DNA of 64,000 nt. It comes from an uncultured Eubacteriales bacterium. Lineage in GTDB: Bacteria; Bacillota; Clostridia; Peptostreptococcales; Anaerovoracaceae. The stretch is taken from contig CADAEH010000002.1 in the NCBI GenBank assembly GCA_902786855.1, forward strand, positions 124,001 through 188,000. The letters are read 5' to 3'. A program made the position numbers and the translations under genes. Every line of letters starts with the position of its first letter. Within the stretch, counting starts at the first letter, position 1. The notes below the pieces were generated by a model. The model did no database searches and had not been told where the DNA came from. It saw only the letters and a program-made list of their open reading frames with translations. Positions 41,929 to 49,307 of the stretch are shown here, one piece after another.

Positions 41929-43926
41929 TCAATATATCGGTTTGGTTGCACCGATCAGGTATTCAGCTGTTTTTTCGTCAACTAATGGCAAAAGTCTGTC
42001 CTTTACCCATCTGTGATAGTCATTGATCCAGGCGATCTCATCATCGCTTAGCATCGATGTATTGATTGCCTCTCTTTCATAAGGAACACATGTGATCGGT
42101 TCGCTGATCAGGGTACCTTCAGGCATATCTGTCAGATCGTCTGCATATTTGATGAGTATTTCATTCTCGATCCTGATACCATATTCTCCGGCTTTGTAAT
42201 ATCCAGGCTCATTGGAAATGATCATTCCGGCTCTGAGTCCATGAGGATCATCTTTGTCTGTTCTCCTGATGCCTGCAGGGCCCTCGTGTACAGACAGAAC
42301 ATGCCCTACGCCATGCGCTACTCCGTGGTTGAAATCCAGTCCTGCGTCCTGCAGCGCATCCCTTGAGACCTGATCCAGCTGTTTCATGGTCGTATCAGGT
42401 GTTATCACATATCTTGACAAGGCTATGTGCCCCTGCAGGACCCGTGTATAGTTGTCGATCATCTCCTGTGACAGCGGTCCGACTGCGATGGTTCTGGTAA
42501 TGTCCGTTGTCCCGTCTATATACTGGCCGCCTGAATCGACAAGGAAAAATCCTTCAGGACGCAGCTCAGCAGCGGTTTCCTCAAGTGGCGAATAATGTAT
42601 TATCGCACCATTAGGTCCGTAACCTGCAATCGTATGGAATGATATGTCAAAACAACCTTCCTTTTCTCTCCTGCATGCTTCAAGATAGTCAGAAGCACTG
42701 ACCTCGTTGAGAATACCCCCGGTCTGTGGATCTTTAAGGTACTTGACACCTGCTTCTTTTACAAAGTTGCCATGTCTTGGATCCATTGCAAACTCACTGC
42801 CATCTCTGAAAGCCTGTGCAGCCAGATCTTTTATCCAGCTGATAAACTCTGTAACAGCAGCTCCATCTTTTATATGAGCATTGCGGGTACATGCGATCTC
42901 AATGTCATTCTTTACTGTTTTCATCAGACTGACCGGTGTAGCTTCATCAATAATGTTATTATGATCAGGCAAATTTATATAAAGTGAGTAGTTTGCAGAT
43001 GATGTATCGAGCCATACTTTAGCGTTTAGAGGAAGTGCTGCTACATCTGAGAAAACATCATCATAATCGCAAATCTCAACAGATTCCAGGCCTCCCGGAA
43101 GTGATGATTTTCCGCCGGTTACATCTAACGTGTTTTGGATCAATTTATCTACTGCTCCCCTCATAACATATAGCCTGACTGTATCCTGGCTCATCAGTAC
43201 ATATGAGAAAAATACCGGCGTATATAAAATATCGTCGCCGCGAAGATTAAGCAGCCATGCTGTCTCCATCAGATCCGTTAAGAGCAGCCAGTCAGCGCCC
43301 TTTTTCTCCATTTCAGAGCGGACCATTTCGATCTTCTGCTCAGCCGTAAGCCCAGCCGAGCTTACAGGCAGTTCCCATATATCAGACGGTATGATCTCAG
43401 GCCGTGGTTCGGCCACACCAGAATTACCCATACTATCCCAGACCAGCCCGCCGAGATCTGCGTCGGCCGTCAGCCTTACTCTCCCATGTTCCTGATCCGC
43501 ATCTGTTCCAGGCAAACCGGAAAATTCTTTTTCAAATTCAAGACCGGTTTTAGCAGGCAGAGTACTTCCGTCAAAGCCTATCCGAAAGTCATCGGTTACA
43601 TGTGTCTTGCCATGTTTTGAGATCAGTTCTTTCATGAATTCAATCACAGTAGGGACCCCGGGTTCTTTCATCTTCATCAGCTGTATACCGCTGCCCTCCA
43701 GTTCAGTCTCTGCCTGCAGGAAAAATCTGCCGTCAGTCCAGATATATGCAGCGTCCTCAGTCACAACCAACTCTTCATTCTCAGAGTGAAGTCCGCTTAG
43801 AAACTCACTGACTTTATAGTGATCGTTCATATATTCCGAACCGTGAGGGTCACTCGATGGAACATAAAAAACATCTATTCCATTTTTATGCATTAGTTTC
43901 TGAAGTTCAATGATCTCTTTTTTCAT
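41929..43926 (-). CDS. Xaa-Pro aminopeptidase (aminopeptidase P, M24B), three-domain form
   Basis: A 665-residue metallopeptidase that removes N-terminal residues before proline. Two creatinase-like domains (about 1-330) precede the pita-bread domain. The metal ligands can be seen: Asp in VDSGGQYIDGTTDITRT, His in GVAHGVGHVLSVHEG, Glu in IISNEPGYYK and Glu in GIRIENEI. The C-terminal DDEIAWINDYHRWV segment is typical of the long eukaryote-like form. No signal peptide, so it is cytosolic. Confidence 0.93.
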   Translation of the reverse strand: MKKEIIELQKLMHKNGIDVFYVPSSDPHGSEYMNDHYKVSEFLSGLHSENEELVVTEDAAYIWTDGRFFLQAETELEGSGIQLMKMKEPGVPTVIEFMKELISKHGKTHVTDDFRIGFDGSTLPAKTGLEFEKEFSGLPGTDADQEHGRVRLTADADLGGLVWDSMGNSGVAEPRPEIIPSDIWELPVSSAGLTAEQKIEMVRSEMEKKGADWLLLTDLMETAWLLNLRGDDILYTPVFFSYVLMSQDTVRLYVMRGAVDKLIQNTLDVTGGKSSLPGGLESVEICDYDDVFSDVAALPLNAKVWLDTSSANYSLYINLPDHNNIIDEATPVSLMKTVKNDIEIACTRNAHIKDGAAVTEFISWIKDLAAQAFRDGSEFAMDPRHGNFVKEAGVKYLKDPQTGGILNEVSASDYLEACRREKEGCFDISFHTIAGYGPNGAIIHYSPLEETAAELRPEGFFLVDSGGQYIDGTTDITRTIAVGPLSQEMIDNYTRVLQGHIALSRYVITPDTTMKQLDQVSRDALQDAGLDFNHGVAHGVGHVLSVHEGPAGIRRTDKDDPHGLRAGMIISNEPGYYKAGEYGIRIENEILIKYADDLTDMPEGTLISEPITCVPYEREAINTSMLSDDEIAWINDYHRWVKDRLLPLVDEKTAEYLIGATKPIY

Positions 43927-43957
43927 ATCGCAATAATCCTTCTTACTATGGGTTTTA

Positions 43958-43984
43958 AAACAAAAAGCCCGCCTATCGGCGGGC
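43958..43984 (-). terminator. Terminator of tRNA-Val(GAC)
   Basis: GCCCGCC/GGCGGGC, 7 bp with a 4-base loop, followed on the minus strand by TTTTTGTTTT, seven bases after the tRNA. Confidence 0.85.
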
Positions 43985-43990
43985 CGTCCT

Positions 43991-44066
43991 TGGTGGCCTA
44001 TATTGGACTTGAACCAATGACCTACAGGTTGTCACCCTGTCGCTCTCCCAACTGAGCTAATAGACC
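43991..44066 (-). tRNA. tRNA-Val(GAC)
   Basis: The anticodon stem ACAGG/CCTGT encloses GTGACAA, so the anticodon is GAC. A73 and CCA are encoded. It stands alone with its own promoter and terminator. Confidence 0.92.
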
Positions 44067-44078
44067 GCTACGAGCGAT

Positions 44079-44107
44079 ATTGTAACACATTGAGTTCCCA
44101 AGTTCAA
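44079..44107 (-). promoter_or_regulatory. Promoter of tRNA-Val(GAC)
   Basis: TTGAAC (44102-44107), 17 bases and TACAAT (44079-44084) on the minus strand, 12 bases before the tRNA gene. It resembles the promoter of the six-tRNA operon. Confidence 0.7.
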
Positions 44108-44147
44108 CACCTAAAGTTTTTTTGATTTTACCGGATGTACCGTTACT

Positions 44148-44912
44148 CTATTTCTCTTTTGATGCTGCATAGTACGGCAGAGCTACGAGCACTATTGCAC
44201 CTATCATATTACCGAGGGTTACTGTGAGGAGATTGTAACAATATCCTCCTATAGTGATTGCTTCATTGCCTCCATTGTTTATCAGGGCCAGAGTCAGCAG
44301 AGTCATATTGGCTACACTGTGCTCGAATCCTGTTGTGAAGAAAGCCAGGATACACCAGAATATCATGATCAGTTTGCCTGATTCCGATTTGCAGCGGAAA
44401 CCGCACCACACGGCAAGGCACACCAGCATGTTACACAGAATGCCTCTTGCCAGCAGCTGCACAAAGCCTGCCGTCATCTTTCCGGCAGCGGCTCCCGTCA
44501 TCGCTGCAAGAGTAGCATCACTGTATAATCCGGTCGCATAGAACAAGATCGCCAGCAGAGCACTGCCAATCAGATTTCCTATCCAGCATATTACCCACAA
44601 TTTTATAACTTCACTTACAGCAACAGTCTTATTCAGCAGTCCTGCAGTCATTACAAAATTGTTTCCTGTGAACAGCTCTGCTCCGGCTATTACTACCAGT
44701 GACAGGGCAACAGCGAAGCAGCTGCCCATGACAAGCTTGGTATAAGGTGCGCCCTGAAGAGCTCCGCTGAGTGTGAAGACAAGCAGGACACCAAAACCGA
44801 CAAACATACCCGCCAGCATAGACAGCATAAAGTATCCGCCCGGTTTGCTTTTGAGCATATTCGATTTTGCAGCCGCACTGTTAGCCGCAGCCAGAAATTC
44901 TTCTTTAAACAT
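44148..44912 (-). CDS. Formate/nitrite transporter family channel (FocA/NirC type)
   Basis: A 254-residue membrane protein with six helices and family motifs: GMFVGFGVLLVF near 37, GAELFTGNNFVMT near 83 and CNMLVCLAVWCGF near 163 with the GFEHSVANM segment near 198, which contains the pore His. These pentameric channels pass formate, nitrite or hydrosulfide. The start at 44912 has GAAAGG seven bases upstream; the ATG at 44927 has no site. It follows the RNase H fusion gene by 25 bases. Formate is plausible for a fermentative anaerobe but is inference. Confidence 0.9.
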   Translation of the reverse strand: MFKEEFLAAANSAAAKSNMLKSKPGGYFMLSMLAGMFVGFGVLLVFTLSGALQGAPYTKLVMGSCFAVALSLVVIAGAELFTGNNFVMTAGLLNKTVAVSEVIKLWVICWIGNLIGSALLAILFYATGLYSDATLAAMTGAAAGKMTAGFVQLLARGILCNMLVCLAVWCGFRCKSESGKLIMIFWCILAFFTTGFEHSVANMTLLTLALINNGGNEAITIGGYCYNLLTVTLGNMIGAIVLVALPYYAASKEK

Positions 44913-44937
44913 CAACAGACCTTTCATTTATGAACAG

Positions 44938-46329
44938 TTATGCTTTTAAGGCGTCTTTTGCAAGTTTGTCGGCAAGCTCATTGTACTTATTGCCGGCATG
45001 TGCTTTTACCTTGACAAAAGTTATATCCATCCTTGTACGGGCTTTTGCAACATACTGGCTGTATTTCTGTGTCAATGGGTTTTTCGCCTTCCAGAGCCCG
45101 TCAGCCCACTTTCCTATACCCTCATAATCATGATATATCGTAACAGCATCTATACCATGTGTGAGGCAGAAATCTATAGCTGTCTTGGATCCCATGATCT
45201 CGCCGGCAACATTTCGTTGTTTTGCAGCTTCCGGATCGTCGTAGGCTTCACTGAGTTCGCAAGTCTTCACATTTCCCTCGGAATCAGTCCTGACCATTAC
45301 TACTCCGCAGGAGAACCTTCCGTCTGAAGCATCATAGCTGCCGTCAACATAAGCACGCACACCTTCCGGAAAGTGCTCTTCAGTTTCCGTCTCTGCGATC
45401 CCGAGATAAGCCATGGCATCTGATGCATCAGCGAAGCTTTTATATTCAGCGCCCGGAAAGCCGTCGACCTGAGCTTTGCAATCTTCCCAGGTCATAAAGA
45501 TGCCTGTGGTTTTGCCTTTTTTAACTGCGTAAATCTTTTTGCCTTTTGCCAAATCATCTGTTCCTTTCGAATTGCCATCTTCAGATATATCACCAGCGCC
45601 CCGCACCGTTTCACTTTTAATATTGTTGGTTCCGGCAGCGCCCCATGCGACCCTGCCGGATGTCTTTTCTTCCTCAAATTTCTTCAGAAAAGAGCGCCTA
45701 TGTATAGGAGTATACCCCATAGTCCGCAGTCCTTCATAGTGTTTTGCGGTACCGTATCCCTTGTTAGATGCAAAATCATATCCCGGATAAGTCTCATCCA
45801 TTTCAGTCATGAAGTTGTCCCTTGCTACTTTAGCAACTATTGAGGCAGCCGCAATGCTCAGGCTCTTCTCATCACCTTTGATTATAGACTCACAAGGTAT
45901 GCCTGCATCAAGCTTTACAGCATCGATCATGAGCATGTCGATCACAGCTTCATCCTTTTCAGTCAGGACCTCGTTGCAATCATCGATCGCTCTTTTCATA
46001 GCTTCTTTCGTTGCTTCAAGGATGTTTATCTCGTCTATCTCGGCCGCATCGGCAATGCCGATGCCGTAGGCGACCGCTCGCTCTTTAATGATTTCCGATA
46101 ATTCCTCACGCCTTTTTGCTGATAGCTTTTTGGAATCATTTACACCGGGTATATCCCAGTCTTCAGGCAGAACAACGCATGCAGCATACACAGGTCCGGC
46201 GAGCGGTCCGCGGCCGACCTCGTCAATTCCTGCAATATGCTTATAGCCCTTTGCACGCAGCTCATCCTCATGAGCTTTCATTTCTGCGAGCTTATTAATA
46301 TCTCTTTCAAGTCTCTCAGCCTTAGTCAT
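44938..46329 (-). CDS. RNase HII-RNase HI fusion protein
   Basis: One 463-residue frame joins two unrelated RNase H types. Residues 1-222 are RNase HII, with the DEDD set at D36-E37 (HIAGIDEVGRG), D136 (MLMIDAVKL) and D153 (IKGDEKSLS), and the ASNKGYGTAKHYEGL region. A flexible linker (223-262) follows. Residues 264-310 match the hybrid-binding N-domain of RNase H1 (KKIYAVKKGKTTGIFMTWED). Residues 322-463 are RNase HI with D329 (YVDGSYD), E377, D401 and D454. All eight catalytic acids are present, so both halves should be active, one on single ribonucleotides in DNA, the other on R-loops. The gene follows rbgA, the usual rnhB position. Confidence 0.92.
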   Translation of the reverse strand: MTKAERLERDINKLAEMKAHEDELRAKGYKHIAGIDEVGRGPLAGPVYAACVVLPEDWDIPGVNDSKKLSAKRREELSEIIKERAVAYGIGIADAAEIDEINILEATKEAMKRAIDDCNEVLTEKDEAVIDMLMIDAVKLDAGIPCESIIKGDEKSLSIAAASIVAKVARDNFMTEMDETYPGYDFASNKGYGTAKHYEGLRTMGYTPIHRRSFLKKFEEEKTSGRVAWGAAGTNNIKSETVRGAGDISEDGNSKGTDDLAKGKKIYAVKKGKTTGIFMTWEDCKAQVDGFPGAEYKSFADASDAMAYLGIAETETEEHFPEGVRAYVDGSYDASDGRFSCGVVMVRTDSEGNVKTCELSEAYDDPEAAKQRNVAGEIMGSKTAIDFCLTHGIDAVTIYHDYEGIGKWADGLWKAKNPLTQKYSQYVAKARTRMDITFVKVKAHAGNKYNELADKLAKDALKA

Positions 46330-46383
46330 TACTTTATATATGCATTCTGCTACTTACATGGTTCTGAGCATCTTGCCTGCTTT

Positions 46384-47226
46384 TCAAGCCTTTTCAAGTG
46401 TGATGCGACCGATCTTTCCACCCCGGAATTCATCCAGGACTGTGCGCCCGGTGCGCTCATAGTCAATGCGCTTTCCGGACATTATGAAGCCTCTCTTAAG
46501 AGCAATGTTATCCATGTTCTCTATTGCCTGATCCGACACTTCATCAAGCTTATACCTTTCCTGCAGCAGTTCCGGATATCGTTCACCGAGAACTCTGATC
46601 AACTCATATCCGAGATCCTGCACGCCGAGTATATCATCCTTGATACTACCGCAAAATGCCAGATTGAGTCCTACATCCGGGTCCTCAAACTTCGGCCATA
46701 GTATACCCGGGGTATCAAGAAGCTGCATTCCATTGGAAAGTGTCAGCCACTGCTTTCCCTTGGTTACTCCAGGCTTGTCTCCGGTAAGTGCGGACTTCCT
46801 GCCTGTCAGCCTGTTTATTAAAGAGGATTTTCCGACATTAGGAACGCCGACTATCATGATGCGGAGTGGACGCTTCACCGACCTTTCAGCATTTCTCTTA
46901 TCCTGCTCTGACTCAAGTGCCTTAAGCAGTCTGTTTATATTCTCACCAGACTGAAGATTGAGTGCCAGTACCTGAACCACTCCCTTATCTGCTGATATCT
47001 TATCTTTCCACTTTACAGTCTCTTTCTCGTCAGCAAGGTCAGCTTTACCCAGTACTACGATGCGTCTCTTACCGCTGATCAGTTCGTCAATAACAGGATT
47101 CCGGCTGGACACAGGAATACGGCTGTCGACGATCTCCACGACCACATCCACAGCTTTGAGATTTTCCTTTATCAACTCGCGGGTCTTCTTCATATGACCC
47201 GGGTACCAGTTTATATTATCTATCAT
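46384..47226 (-). CDS. rbgA: Ribosome biogenesis GTPase RbgA (YlqF)
   Basis: A 280-residue circularly permuted GTPase needed late in 50S assembly. The motif order is G4 (LGKADL near 60), G1 (GVPNVGKSSLINRL near 125) and G3 (DTPGILWPK near 170), with the N-terminal INWYPGHMKK signature. The start at 47226 (ATG) overlaps the stop of the upstream nuclease-like gene as ATGA; a TTG-initiated longer form is less likely. rbgA next to an RNase HII gene is the standard order, but rplS is separated from it here. Confidence 0.95.
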   Translation of the reverse strand: MIDNINWYPGHMKKTRELIKENLKAVDVVVEIVDSRIPVSSRNPVIDELISGKRRIVVLGKADLADEKETVKWKDKISADKGVVQVLALNLQSGENINRLLKALESEQDKRNAERSVKRPLRIMIVGVPNVGKSSLINRLTGRKSALTGDKPGVTKGKQWLTLSNGMQLLDTPGILWPKFEDPDVGLNLAFCGSIKDDILGVQDLGYELIRVLGERYPELLQERYKLDEVSDQAIENMDNIALKRGFIMSGKRIDYERTGRTVLDEFRGGKIGRITLEKA

Positions 47227-48086
47227 AACAGCCAACCCTCTATCATTGAGTCTATCAGTTTTGCATTAAACCCTCCGCCGGAATAATTATATGTCATTAT
47301 CAAATTATCCCATGGAGTTATTCCGTATTCAATGTATTCAATCACTTTTTCGATATTAGCACTGACATACTTCGGATCATTGACCTTCCCGAAATGCTCC
47401 CAGTAAATGATCTTTCTGTCTCGTGGTCTGATGATCGTAAAATCAGGAACACGTCCTATCAGCGGACTGTTAAGCGACGCTTCAAATCTGTGCGGGATAT
47501 TATAATGATCCAGTCTGGAAGTAATGTATATCTCACCATCCGAGCGCATTTCGACACCCTTAAGTGAGATTGATCTGAGATCTTCTTTATAGAAATTGTT
47601 ATCAGGAACGAATTCCTCCTCCCACTTTTTACCATCGAACTGCTTATAAAACAAGCCCTCTGTCAGCTGCGGATACTTTTCAATATAATCCTTCATAACC
47701 GACGCTTCATCAGAAGGAACATACCCCTCAATTACTATTTCCAGGTTCGAAAGATTTTGATCAAGAGCCTCAAGTGCCTGCTGAACATACCGTTTCCGAA
47801 CCAGAGCAAGGATTTTATCATTATCATTACTTATACCGATGCGATGCTCCTTCTTCCTATTGCCGCCCTTAGGAAACCGTTCACTATAGTAATACCTGCC
47901 ATCCTGTACATATATATACAATATGCCTTCAGGCAGGTTTTCAAGTTCATGTATGAGATCGTTCCTGCGCTCAGTCATGATTTTAAGCAAATTAGTCAGT
48001 TGCCATTTATAAGTCATACAGCGTACCCCACTCCTGTCAGTATTCTTCTGATGTCTGCTATTAGTCACTTCTATTGTTGCATTCAC
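47223..48086 (-). CDS. Unknown protein with PD-(D/E)XK nuclease-like C-terminal domain
   Basis: A 287-residue protein not recognised as any named family. Residues 35-110 are helical with a beta hairpin (GILYIYVQDGRYYYSERF). The C-terminal half has the pattern of a restriction-endonuclease fold: a helix with Glu185 (MRSDGEIYITSRLDHY), RFEASL, then VPDFTIIRPRDRKIIYWEHFG with Asp215 and Glu230, and a Lys-containing helix. The last motif reads E-H instead of E-x-K, so activity is uncertain. The start could also be an ATG near 48017 (MTYKWQLTN). It overlaps rbgA by four bases and interrupts the usual rplS-rbgA order. Confidence 0.55.
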   Translation of the reverse strand: MNATIEVTNSRHQKNTDRSGVRCMTYKWQLTNLLKIMTERRNDLIHELENLPEGILYIYVQDGRYYYSERFPKGGNRKKEHRIGISNDNDKILALVRKRYVQQALEALDQNLSNLEIVIEGYVPSDEASVMKDYIEKYPQLTEGLFYKQFDGKKWEEEFVPDNNFYKEDLRSISLKGVEMRSDGEIYITSRLDHYNIPHRFEASLNSPLIGRVPDFTIIRPRDRKIIYWEHFGKVNDPKYVSANIEKVIEYIEYGITPWDNLIMTYNYSGGGFNAKLIDSMIEGWLL

Positions 48087-48213
48087 TTCTCATGCCACAT
48101 CTGATCTGAATCGGTTCACATATTTACTGATGGGCAGTGCACCCGTGAATGCTAATAGACCTTCTTACTGATGTACAGTTCCGCCTTGATTGTTAAAAGC
48201 TCAGAGTGATCTT

Positions 48214-48272
48214 AAAAAAGGACTTTTGAAGATTTCCCTACATGAATACTCGAAATTTTAGTTTTCATGTAG
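48214..48272 (+). repeat. Left terminal inverted repeat of the MITE-like element
   Basis: It starts AAAAAAGGACTTTTGAAG and ends TTTTCATGTAG; its partner is at 48473-48530. Confidence 0.6.
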
Positions 48273-48472
48273 TATGAATAGCCATTTCAGGCAAAACTAT
48301 GTCTTATTTTTGTTTCGAGTAGATTGCTGCCTATGTCACATGAAAAAGCTCTGTGCTATGAACGCCAGTGTTTTCAAGGCTTCGGTGCAAATCATTATTT
48401 TTTATCTAAACATGAAGCATTTCCACAGTATCCTTGAACTGATAAAAGCCGATTCTTTTTCAGCAATTATAC

Positions 48473-48530
48473 TACATGAAAATCATATATTTCATGTTTT
48501 GTGTAGGGAATTTGCAAAAAGTCCTCTTTG
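48473..48530 (-). repeat. Right terminal inverted repeat of the MITE-like element
   Basis: Read on the minus strand it starts AAAGAGGACTTTTTGC and ends TTTTCATGTAG, matching the left arm. Confidence 0.6.
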
Positions 48531-48648
48531 ACATGTATCTCGGGACTTCGGCTCCCATCTCAGAGCAAAGTGTAACGCCTGGGATCCCACGGTGTTCAGG
48601 TTGACCAAAAGCGTCTCGGGATCTGAATGCACAGGATTCTCCGGGCAA

Positions 48649-48686
48649 GAAAAAAAGCATACCTTCTGCGATTGCTTCAGGTATGC
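48649..48686 (-). terminator. Terminator of rplS
   Basis: GCATACC/GGTATGC stem with a 16-base loop followed on the minus strand by TTTTTTTCTTG, ten bases after the rplS stop. Confidence 0.85.
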
Positions 48687-48696
48687 AATGTGATTA

Positions 48697-49038
48697 CTAT
48701 TCAGCGCTTCTGATTCTGGCTGCCTTACCGGTTCTCTGACGCATGTAGTTGAGCTTAGCTCTTCTGACTCTGCCTCTCTTGACTACCTCGATCTTCTCGA
48801 TCCTTGGTGAGTGAAGCGGGAAAGTCTTCTCTACGCCGATACCGTTTGACAATTTTCTTACTGTGAATGTCTCGTTGACTCCACCGTGCTGTCTCTTCAG
48901 TACATAACCCTCGAATACCTGGATTCTTTCTCTCTGGCCCTCGATGATCTTGACGTGTACACGAAGTGTGTCACCAACGTTGAATGCAGGGATATCGTCC
49001 CTTTTGTAATCCATTGTGATCTGGTCTAAAATGTTCAC
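48697..49038 (-). CDS. rplS: 50S ribosomal protein L19
   Basis: A 113-residue ribosomal protein at the 30S-50S interface. Typical segments are [26 protein letters not shown] and [22 protein letters not shown]. The start codon is GTG at 49038, with GGAAGGAGAG upstream. It is followed by a terminator, so unlike in many Firmicutes it is not co-transcribed with rbgA. Confidence 0.97.
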
Positions 49039-49050
49039 GTTATTCTCTCC

Positions 49051-49075
49051 TTCCTCTCATGACGTTCTTGAGGAA
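49051..49075 (-). promoter_or_regulatory. Hairpin beside the rplS ribosome site (possible L19 leader)
   Basis: On the minus strand TTCCTC pairs with GAGGAA just before the GGAGAG ribosome site. The roughly 150-base leader has further inverted repeats (CAGAC/GTCTG; GGCC arms). Firmicutes rplS genes can carry an autoregulatory L19 leader; membership of that family is not shown here. Confidence 0.35.
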
Positions 49076-49193
49076 ATACAGACTGTTATGATCATTTGTC
49101 TGCCCCAGAGGACCGCCCGTAATAACATAATGCTGCAAGGCCGTGCTCGCCACGTGCTGTTGACACTTCACCGGCCAGCCGCACAGCTTGATG

Positions 49194-49223
49194 ATAATAA
49201 CACACCAAGCCAGCTGATTTCAA
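49194..49223 (-). promoter_or_regulatory. Promoter of rplS
   Basis: TTGAAA (49218-49223), 18 bases and TATTAT (49194-49199) on the minus strand, giving a leader of about 150 bases. Confidence 0.5.
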
Positions 49224-49307
49224 GCACTTTCAGCCATTTTTTCAGATTTTTCTAATGAAATTTATACCTTTATGAATTGTGCAGCTACCTTCTCGGATAT
49301 TATGCAG

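Follow-up and report, generated by a model that had tools for sequence, protein, structure and literature searches.

In the window, a stretch of 64,000 nucleotides from an uncultured Eubacteriales gut bacterium akin to Mogibacterium, the genes for two different ribonucleases H are joined in a single reading frame that also appears to hold a second translation start. We place a probability of roughly three in four on the reading that this is one natural gene fusion with two products, a bifunctional RNase HII-RNase HI from a weak rnhB start, and a free RNase HI carrying its hybrid-binding domain (HBD) from a stronger internal start. Textbooks treat RNase HI and RNase HII as distinct enzymes, each with substrates of its own. 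We also think it likely, if a shade less firmly, that a clade of gut Clostridia would draw all its RNase H activity from this one dual-output gene, as fusion and as free RNase HI.

Two complete RNases H in one reading frame

The fused gene rnhB-rnhA lies at 44938..46329 on the minus strand and encodes 463 aa in the order RNase HII, linker, HBD and RNase HI. The original prediction of one uninterrupted 463-residue frame was correct, the frame being open throughout, and to it we add the strand, which had been left unstated. In a Pfam domain search all three domains were found in the one protein, as predicted, and all of them scored over their curated cut-offs. RNase_HII (PF01351) matched at residues 33-215 (45685..46233, minus strand) with E 2.9e-39 and 135.5 bits against a cut-off of 25.8; the Cauli_VI/RNase H1 N-terminal domain (PF01693), which is the HBD, at residues 265-308 (45406..45537, minus strand) with E 4.3e-19 and 68.9 against 21 bits; and RNase_H (PF00075) at residues 324-461 (44947..45360, minus strand) with E 9.7e-11 and 42.5 against 25.8 bits. 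The N-terminal half was also recognised by the NCBIfam ribonuclease HII model (288.7 bits, cut-off 243), and the window protein scored as no RNase HIII (RnhC), its 30.1 bits with TIGR00716 lying below the cut-off of 161.2. Solved structures related to the N-terminal part are the RNases HII 5y9p and 2etj, while those related to the HBD are the RNase H1 chains 6vrd and 3bsu and the RNase HI chain 1qhk; the RNase H-related protein 2kq2 was found as a further structural relative.

A DEDD active site together with a GRG motif defines RNase HII (RnhB), and a DEDD active site with a catalytic-loop histidine defines the HBD-type RNase HI (RNase H1). Every acidic residue that had been named beforehand was found at its position, namely D36, E37, D136 and D153 in RNase HII and D329, E377, D401 and D454 in RNase HI, where the histidine is H444. 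Our discovery set comprised 39 distinct fusions, one of which (L047) starts at a contig edge and leaves 38 rows for the most N-terminal residues. D36, E37, D136 and the motif G39 R40 G41 were invariant in 38/38 of these, and D153, D329, E377, D401, D454 and H444 in 39/39. By domain and motif criteria the N-terminal half is thus an RNase HII, predicted to cleave at single ribonucleotides, and by domain order and residues the C-terminal half is an HBD-type RNase HI, predicted to cleave hybrids. As described in PMC1950709, the RNase HI of B. subtilis, which has no HBD, is inactive, and the HBD-bearing enzymes of B. halodurans and Shewanella are active.

Over 37 relatives, mean identity to the window protein was 76% in RNase HII, 74% in the HBD and 68% in RNase HI, and it was 34% in the variable linker between RNase HII and HBD (residues 217-263, 45541..45681, minus strand; 47 residues). 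Median dN/dS, taken over pairs with dS under 1.2 only, was 0.044 for RNase HII (14 of 703 pairs), 0.116 for the HBD (140 of 703) and 0.063 for RNase HI (20 of 703). All three domains are under purifying selection.

Distribution of the fusion

Fifty distinct fusion genes were gathered in all. Among named genome records a scan turned up 37 loci. The full-length fusion is present in 28 of them, its best segment being 52-75% identical, and these come exclusively from Mogibacterium, Candidatus Crickella or other Clostridia or Clostridiales assemblies; eight of the other nine match the HBD-RNase HI part only, and one RNase HI only. In a survey of the window's genus, 44 of 48 genomes gave a match, with the fusion in one frame in 43 and a contig-edge fragment in G1038, and no match was obtained in four of the 48, among them G1048, which is 93% complete. 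A second, partial fusion copy was noticed at G1027:C62:2056-3021, in a genome that is 84% complete with 6% contamination. The family survey covered 247 genomes and found the HBD in 22, fused in 16 and unfused in six. The fused ones belong to the window's genus (nine), g61 (four) and g33, g66 and g91 (one each), the g91 fusion being cut by a contig end. The original prediction had proposed listing genomes with the same architecture, and these two surveys provide that list, with 43/48 genomes in the genus and 16 in the family.

A frameshift or assembly error that joins two genes had been named as what would undo the prediction. Such an artefact is ruled out, its probability being practically nil, by the relatives that carry the same fusion: 50 distinct genes from many assemblies, including the one-contig genome G160.

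Outside the family, no HBD-RNase HII fusion was found among the HBD-bearing genomes, which number 84/391 in a class sample and 47/398 in a phylum sample; the two samples overlap, and were judged first by open-frame length, and cases may be hidden in frames truncated at contig ends. Frames of more than 400 aa were present in G505, G364, G942, G719, G937:C10 and G937:C17. As fusion candidates G505 and G942 were rejected for carrying HBD-RNase HI with RnlA-type domains instead, G364 for carrying it with a deaminase, and G937:C10 for a double HBD, and G719 (L108) gave no RNase HII match in a blastp comparison only. The G937:C17 frame, seen in the phylum survey, is 1515 aa long with two weak HBD matches, and falls outside the five frames that were retrieved. 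In phages, 0/380 matching records cover 80% of the query in one place.

RNase H gene content of the fused genomes

In the window's own genome the fused gene is the only PF00075 match and the only PF01351 match, which on its own is weak evidence of absence because this genome is 87% complete; eight other genomes of its genus in the family survey are at least 94% complete. A Pol I-type 5'-3' exonuclease domain is encoded in the window's genome as well. An RNase_HII profile search of the 16 fused family-survey genomes returned one gene each; in G091 that gene is split, its two matches lying at two contig ends and covering positions 1-101 and 130-197 of the model. The RNase_H search returned one locus in 14 of the 16; in the other two, G169 and G124, the domain scores under the model threshold and was covered by a protein search. 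RNase HIII, which belongs to the PF01351 family, falls within the same search, and none was found in these 16 genomes. Altogether no second RNase HI or RNase HII/HIII gene was found in the 16, and the expectation that genomes with the fusion would have no separate rnhA or rnhC was borne out, with 0/16 holding a second RNase_H or RNase_HII gene. The pattern fits PMC1950709, where HBD-type RNase HI genes are described as tending to take the place of ordinary rnhA and to exclude rnhC.

These searches bear on the idea that one half of the fusion is catalytically dead and acts as a binding or targeting module. The RNase_H match in fused genomes is about 1e-9 to 1e-13, whereas most other family members have a canonical rnhA matching at about 1e-30, in a gene separate from that for RNase HII, and a weaker match is what a dead half might give. 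We nevertheless regard a dead half as very unlikely: neither the catalytic acids nor H444 vary, purifying selection acts on both halves, and the fused genomes surveyed yielded no further gene for either enzyme.

Probable origin from adjacent genes

In both genomes of the genus g77, rnhB and rnhA are adjacent and unfused. In one of them (L063) rnhB ends at an in-frame TGA that is followed by AAGGAG and the ATG of rnhA in the same frame; in the other (L064) a TAG is followed by AAGGAG and an ATG in another frame. The two genes are about 1.75 kb apart in g37, and on different contigs in G005 and G008. In the HBD-RNase HI tree the fused genes group with g77 (92/87) and then with g37 (88/83), and 76% of bootstraps recover a single origin of the fusion (branch 72/85). 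Resolution of the RNase HII tree is poor, with two changes required. The simplest path, and probably the one by which the fusion arose, is that the stop codon between adjacent operon genes was lost. Since g77 falls in or beside the fused clade, its gene pair may be a later frame break, not the ancestral state.

A start codon and Shine-Dalgarno sequence conserved inside the fused frame

In most of the standalone rnhA genes that we examined, the start lies 3 to 7 residues ahead of the YAV tyrosine, often as M-A-K-K-x-Y-A-V. At this very position the window has a start codon, TTG (codon 260; 45550..45552, minus strand), with the Shine-Dalgarno-like sequence AAAGGA (45562..45567, minus strand) 9 nt before it and a duplex energy of -5.6. 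Translation from here would give a free HBD-RNase HI of 204 aa (44938..45552, minus strand). The window's site is among the weaker ones, a value of -5.6 being reached at the first ATG in 64% of 45 long window frames, and in relatives the energy goes down to -11.7. For the comparison across relatives, the internal start was defined as the last start-like codon within six codons, two discovery rows having two. ATG, GTG or TTG is kept at the former rnhA start in 49 of the 50 distinct fusions (38/39 in discovery, 11/11 in a hold-out), the one fusion without it being L065 from genus g66. Among the 49, Shine-Dalgarno energy is -5.5 or lower in 48, the weak one being L066 (-5.0). Among representatives under 80% identity the start is present in 18/19.

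Both elements exceed what the coding sequence imposes. Valine at the site is always encoded by GTG (10/10 in the discovery set, against 0.21 elsewhere in these genes) and leucine always by TTG (5/5, against 0.035), counts that are not independent trials because the sequences are related. Duplex energy with the 16S tail averaged -8.6 kcal/mol at 38 discovery sites, against -3.4 for 625 further start-like codons in frame and -5.9 under synonymous resampling, where the lowest of 200 means was -6.8. An energy of -7 was reached at 30/38 sites and at 4.6% of control codons. Out of 11 start-codon-rich alignment columns, that of the internal start was the strongest (-8.8; next -5.6). Openness of the mRNA at the internal start was only slightly above random (0.50 against 0.44).

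Since the site had been chosen after viewing the alignment, a hold-out was drawn from further genomes of the genus. It comprised 34 fused loci, of which 23 repeat the discovery set and 11 are new, the latter being 61.5 to 92.9% identical to the nearest discovery gene. Their site codons were again GTG for valine (4/4) and TTG for leucine (2/2), against 0.23 and 0.07 elsewhere, and their energies ranged from -5.9 to -11.3, -5.5 being reached by 21% of 202 control codons. The conserved start and Shine-Dalgarno sequence inside the frame are, on this sequence evidence, in excess of coding constraint, and most likely a free HBD-RNase HI is made from the internal start besides the fusion.

It could be argued that only the full-length fusion is made, and that the internal start and its Shine-Dalgarno sequence are leftovers of the ancestral rnhA. 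The unfused g77 pair does have an ordinary rnhA start with its Shine-Dalgarno sequence at this place, and L065 is a fusion that does without a start there. Against this, synonymous differences between the fusions are near saturation (median ps 0.70-0.76), the residues and the length of the linker have turned over, and still the start is retained in 49/50, which makes it hardly a fresh relic. The codon itself has not stood still either: ATG, GTG and TTG have replaced one another at least 11 times on the tree (48 rows with a start), with GTG and TTG as the sole Val and Leu codons at the site. We therefore hold this alternative to be unlikely.

The rnhB start and the upstream neighbourhood

The internal start is stronger than that of rnhB, with mean Shine-Dalgarno energies of -8.8 and -2.9. 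The latter value is the mean over 38 fused genes, and compares with -6.0 over 22 unfused rnhB genes and 0 in the window. A strong internal Shine-Dalgarno sequence beside a weak one at rnhB hints that free RNase HI may be the main product. The original prediction of a bifunctional enzyme accordingly needs to be qualified: two complete, conserved RNases H are indeed fused, but the bifunctional chain is probably only half of the output, given the conserved internal start.

Immediately upstream, and on the same strand, the fusion adjoins an open frame at 46384..47235 (minus strand) for a GTPase gene, which we presume to be ylqF/rbgA-like from the Firmicutes gene order rplS-ylqF-rnhB. Within 46330-46399 of the window the rnhB start is without Shine-Dalgarno-like pairing, and pairing is weak in many fused relatives. 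In L005 there seems to be an overlap between the rnhB ATG and the end of the gene before it, an arrangement like that of translationally coupled genes. At L068:1197-2723, RNase HII shares a 509-aa frame with a GTPase (MMR_HSR1, probably YlqF/RbgA), the two being likely neighbours in this operon, and start codons with a Shine-Dalgarno-like stretch are found at the former rnhB start in L068. Scans of 43900-49300 gave nine promoter-like sites, against 9.8 expected in shuffles, and seven terminator-like sites, against 3.4.

Apparent selection on the joined chain

The strength of the internal start also lends itself to another reading, that the fusion is a harmless read-through accident and the working products are a long-tailed RNase HII and a free RNase HI. 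The unfused g77 pair, which lies beside or inside the fused clade, points the same way, its frame having perhaps been broken without harm. The linker allows this reading to be judged. The internal rnhA start makes frame breaks in the linker tolerable if separate enzymes suffice, and their absence would then indicate selection on the joined chain. In 37 relatives the region aligned with the window's linker has 5 to 37 residues. Measured from the conserved HRxxF to YAV, linker length takes 21 distinct values among the 50 genes and must have changed at least 26 times on a tree of 49 fused rows, where harmless breaks of frame should be common. Only fused genes had been chosen for that tree, which partly presupposes linkers in frame; the search behind the genus survey was free of that choice, and there 43/43 assessable genes are in frame despite their varying linker length. 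We consider a harmless accident improbable on these grounds. Both the joined chain and the inner start appear to be under selection, with g77 as a possible exception.

Relation to known systems

Among the literature matches listed, we found no description of an RNase HII-RNase HI fusion or of a nested start in one, and none of them names such an architecture, in agreement with the original prediction, which did not know it as a described class. We regard the fusion with its nested internal start as new, RNase HII fusions and internal starts as such being already known. MS_RHII-RSD of Mycobacterium smegmatis is an RNase HII fused to a (p)ppGpp synthetase (PMC5566576), and resembles the present protein in that a bacterial RNase HII shares one chain with a second enzyme. 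It differs in its partner, which is an alarmone synthetase and not an RNase H, and the accessible part of PMC5566576 mentions no internal start. The HBD-RNase HI unit is the same as that of the Bacillus halodurans-type RNase HI with an N-terminal dsRHbd/HBD, which unlike here is encoded by a separate gene (PMC1950709); in the accessible part of that source dsRHbd is reported joined to RNase HI or to a resolvase domain, and no case joined to RNase HII is given.

With respect to the internal start, the closest likeness is to cas8b/cas11b and cas10d/cas11, where a large protein and its C-terminal part are made from one gene by means of an internal in-frame start. PMC11899642 shows a potential Shine-Dalgarno sequence for Cas11b and states that an excess of the inner product is required. 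The proteins and their function are different, and the inner product here is a complete enzyme that is elsewhere encoded by a separate gene.

The HBD-RNase HI unit was also seen with other partners. In several Bacillota (L034, L037, L039, L106 and L107) it is found in one frame of 479-501 aa with RnlA (RNase LS) toxin-like domains. These proteins are like the present fusion in joining the HBD-RNase HI unit to another protein, and unlike it in that the unit is N-terminal and its partner a toxin-antitoxin RNase. The E. coli antitoxin RnlB is described as needing RNase HI to inhibit RnlA (PMC5308261), and the RnlA-type fusion thus joins functionally linked proteins. At L109:1418-2683 a 422-aa frame combines HBD-RNase HI with a MafB19/dCMP-type deaminase domain, and at L110:1187-2467 two hybrid-binding domain matches are followed by RNase H.

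Proposed mechanism and significance

Based on these observations we propose the following scheme. The stop codon between adjacent rnhB and HBD-rnhA genes would have been lost, leaving one frame. Ribosomes starting at the weak rnhB start would make the bifunctional RNase HII-HBD-RNase HI, and those starting at the stronger internal site would make free HBD-RNase HI, probably in excess. The free form may stand in for the lost canonical rnhA and do the bulk work of clearing R-loops and RNA primers. According to PMC4429107 and PMC4300193, RNase HI is believed to require four or more ribonucleotides, and both single ribonucleotides and RNA primers are removed by RNase HII. In the fusion, whose halves would be joined by a flexible tether, trimming of RNA stretches by RNase HI would be coupled to an RNase HII cut at the final ribonucleotide or at a single one. 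The probable gain from coupling is that a residual ribonucleotide could be handed from RNase HI to the RNase HII site of the same molecule.

If the scheme is right, the ratio of fusion to free RNase HI would be set by two nested starts, and the path from adjacent genes through stop-codon loss would have led to a fusion whose old start is still under selection. As the retained internal start suggests, joining two genes does not have to stop the independent supply of the second protein, and searching fusion linkers for conserved start codons with Shine-Dalgarno sequences could reveal more two-product genes. For the clade itself, dependence on a single gene would allow a direct test of whether coupling aids the removal of RNA primers, R-loops and embedded ribonucleotides.
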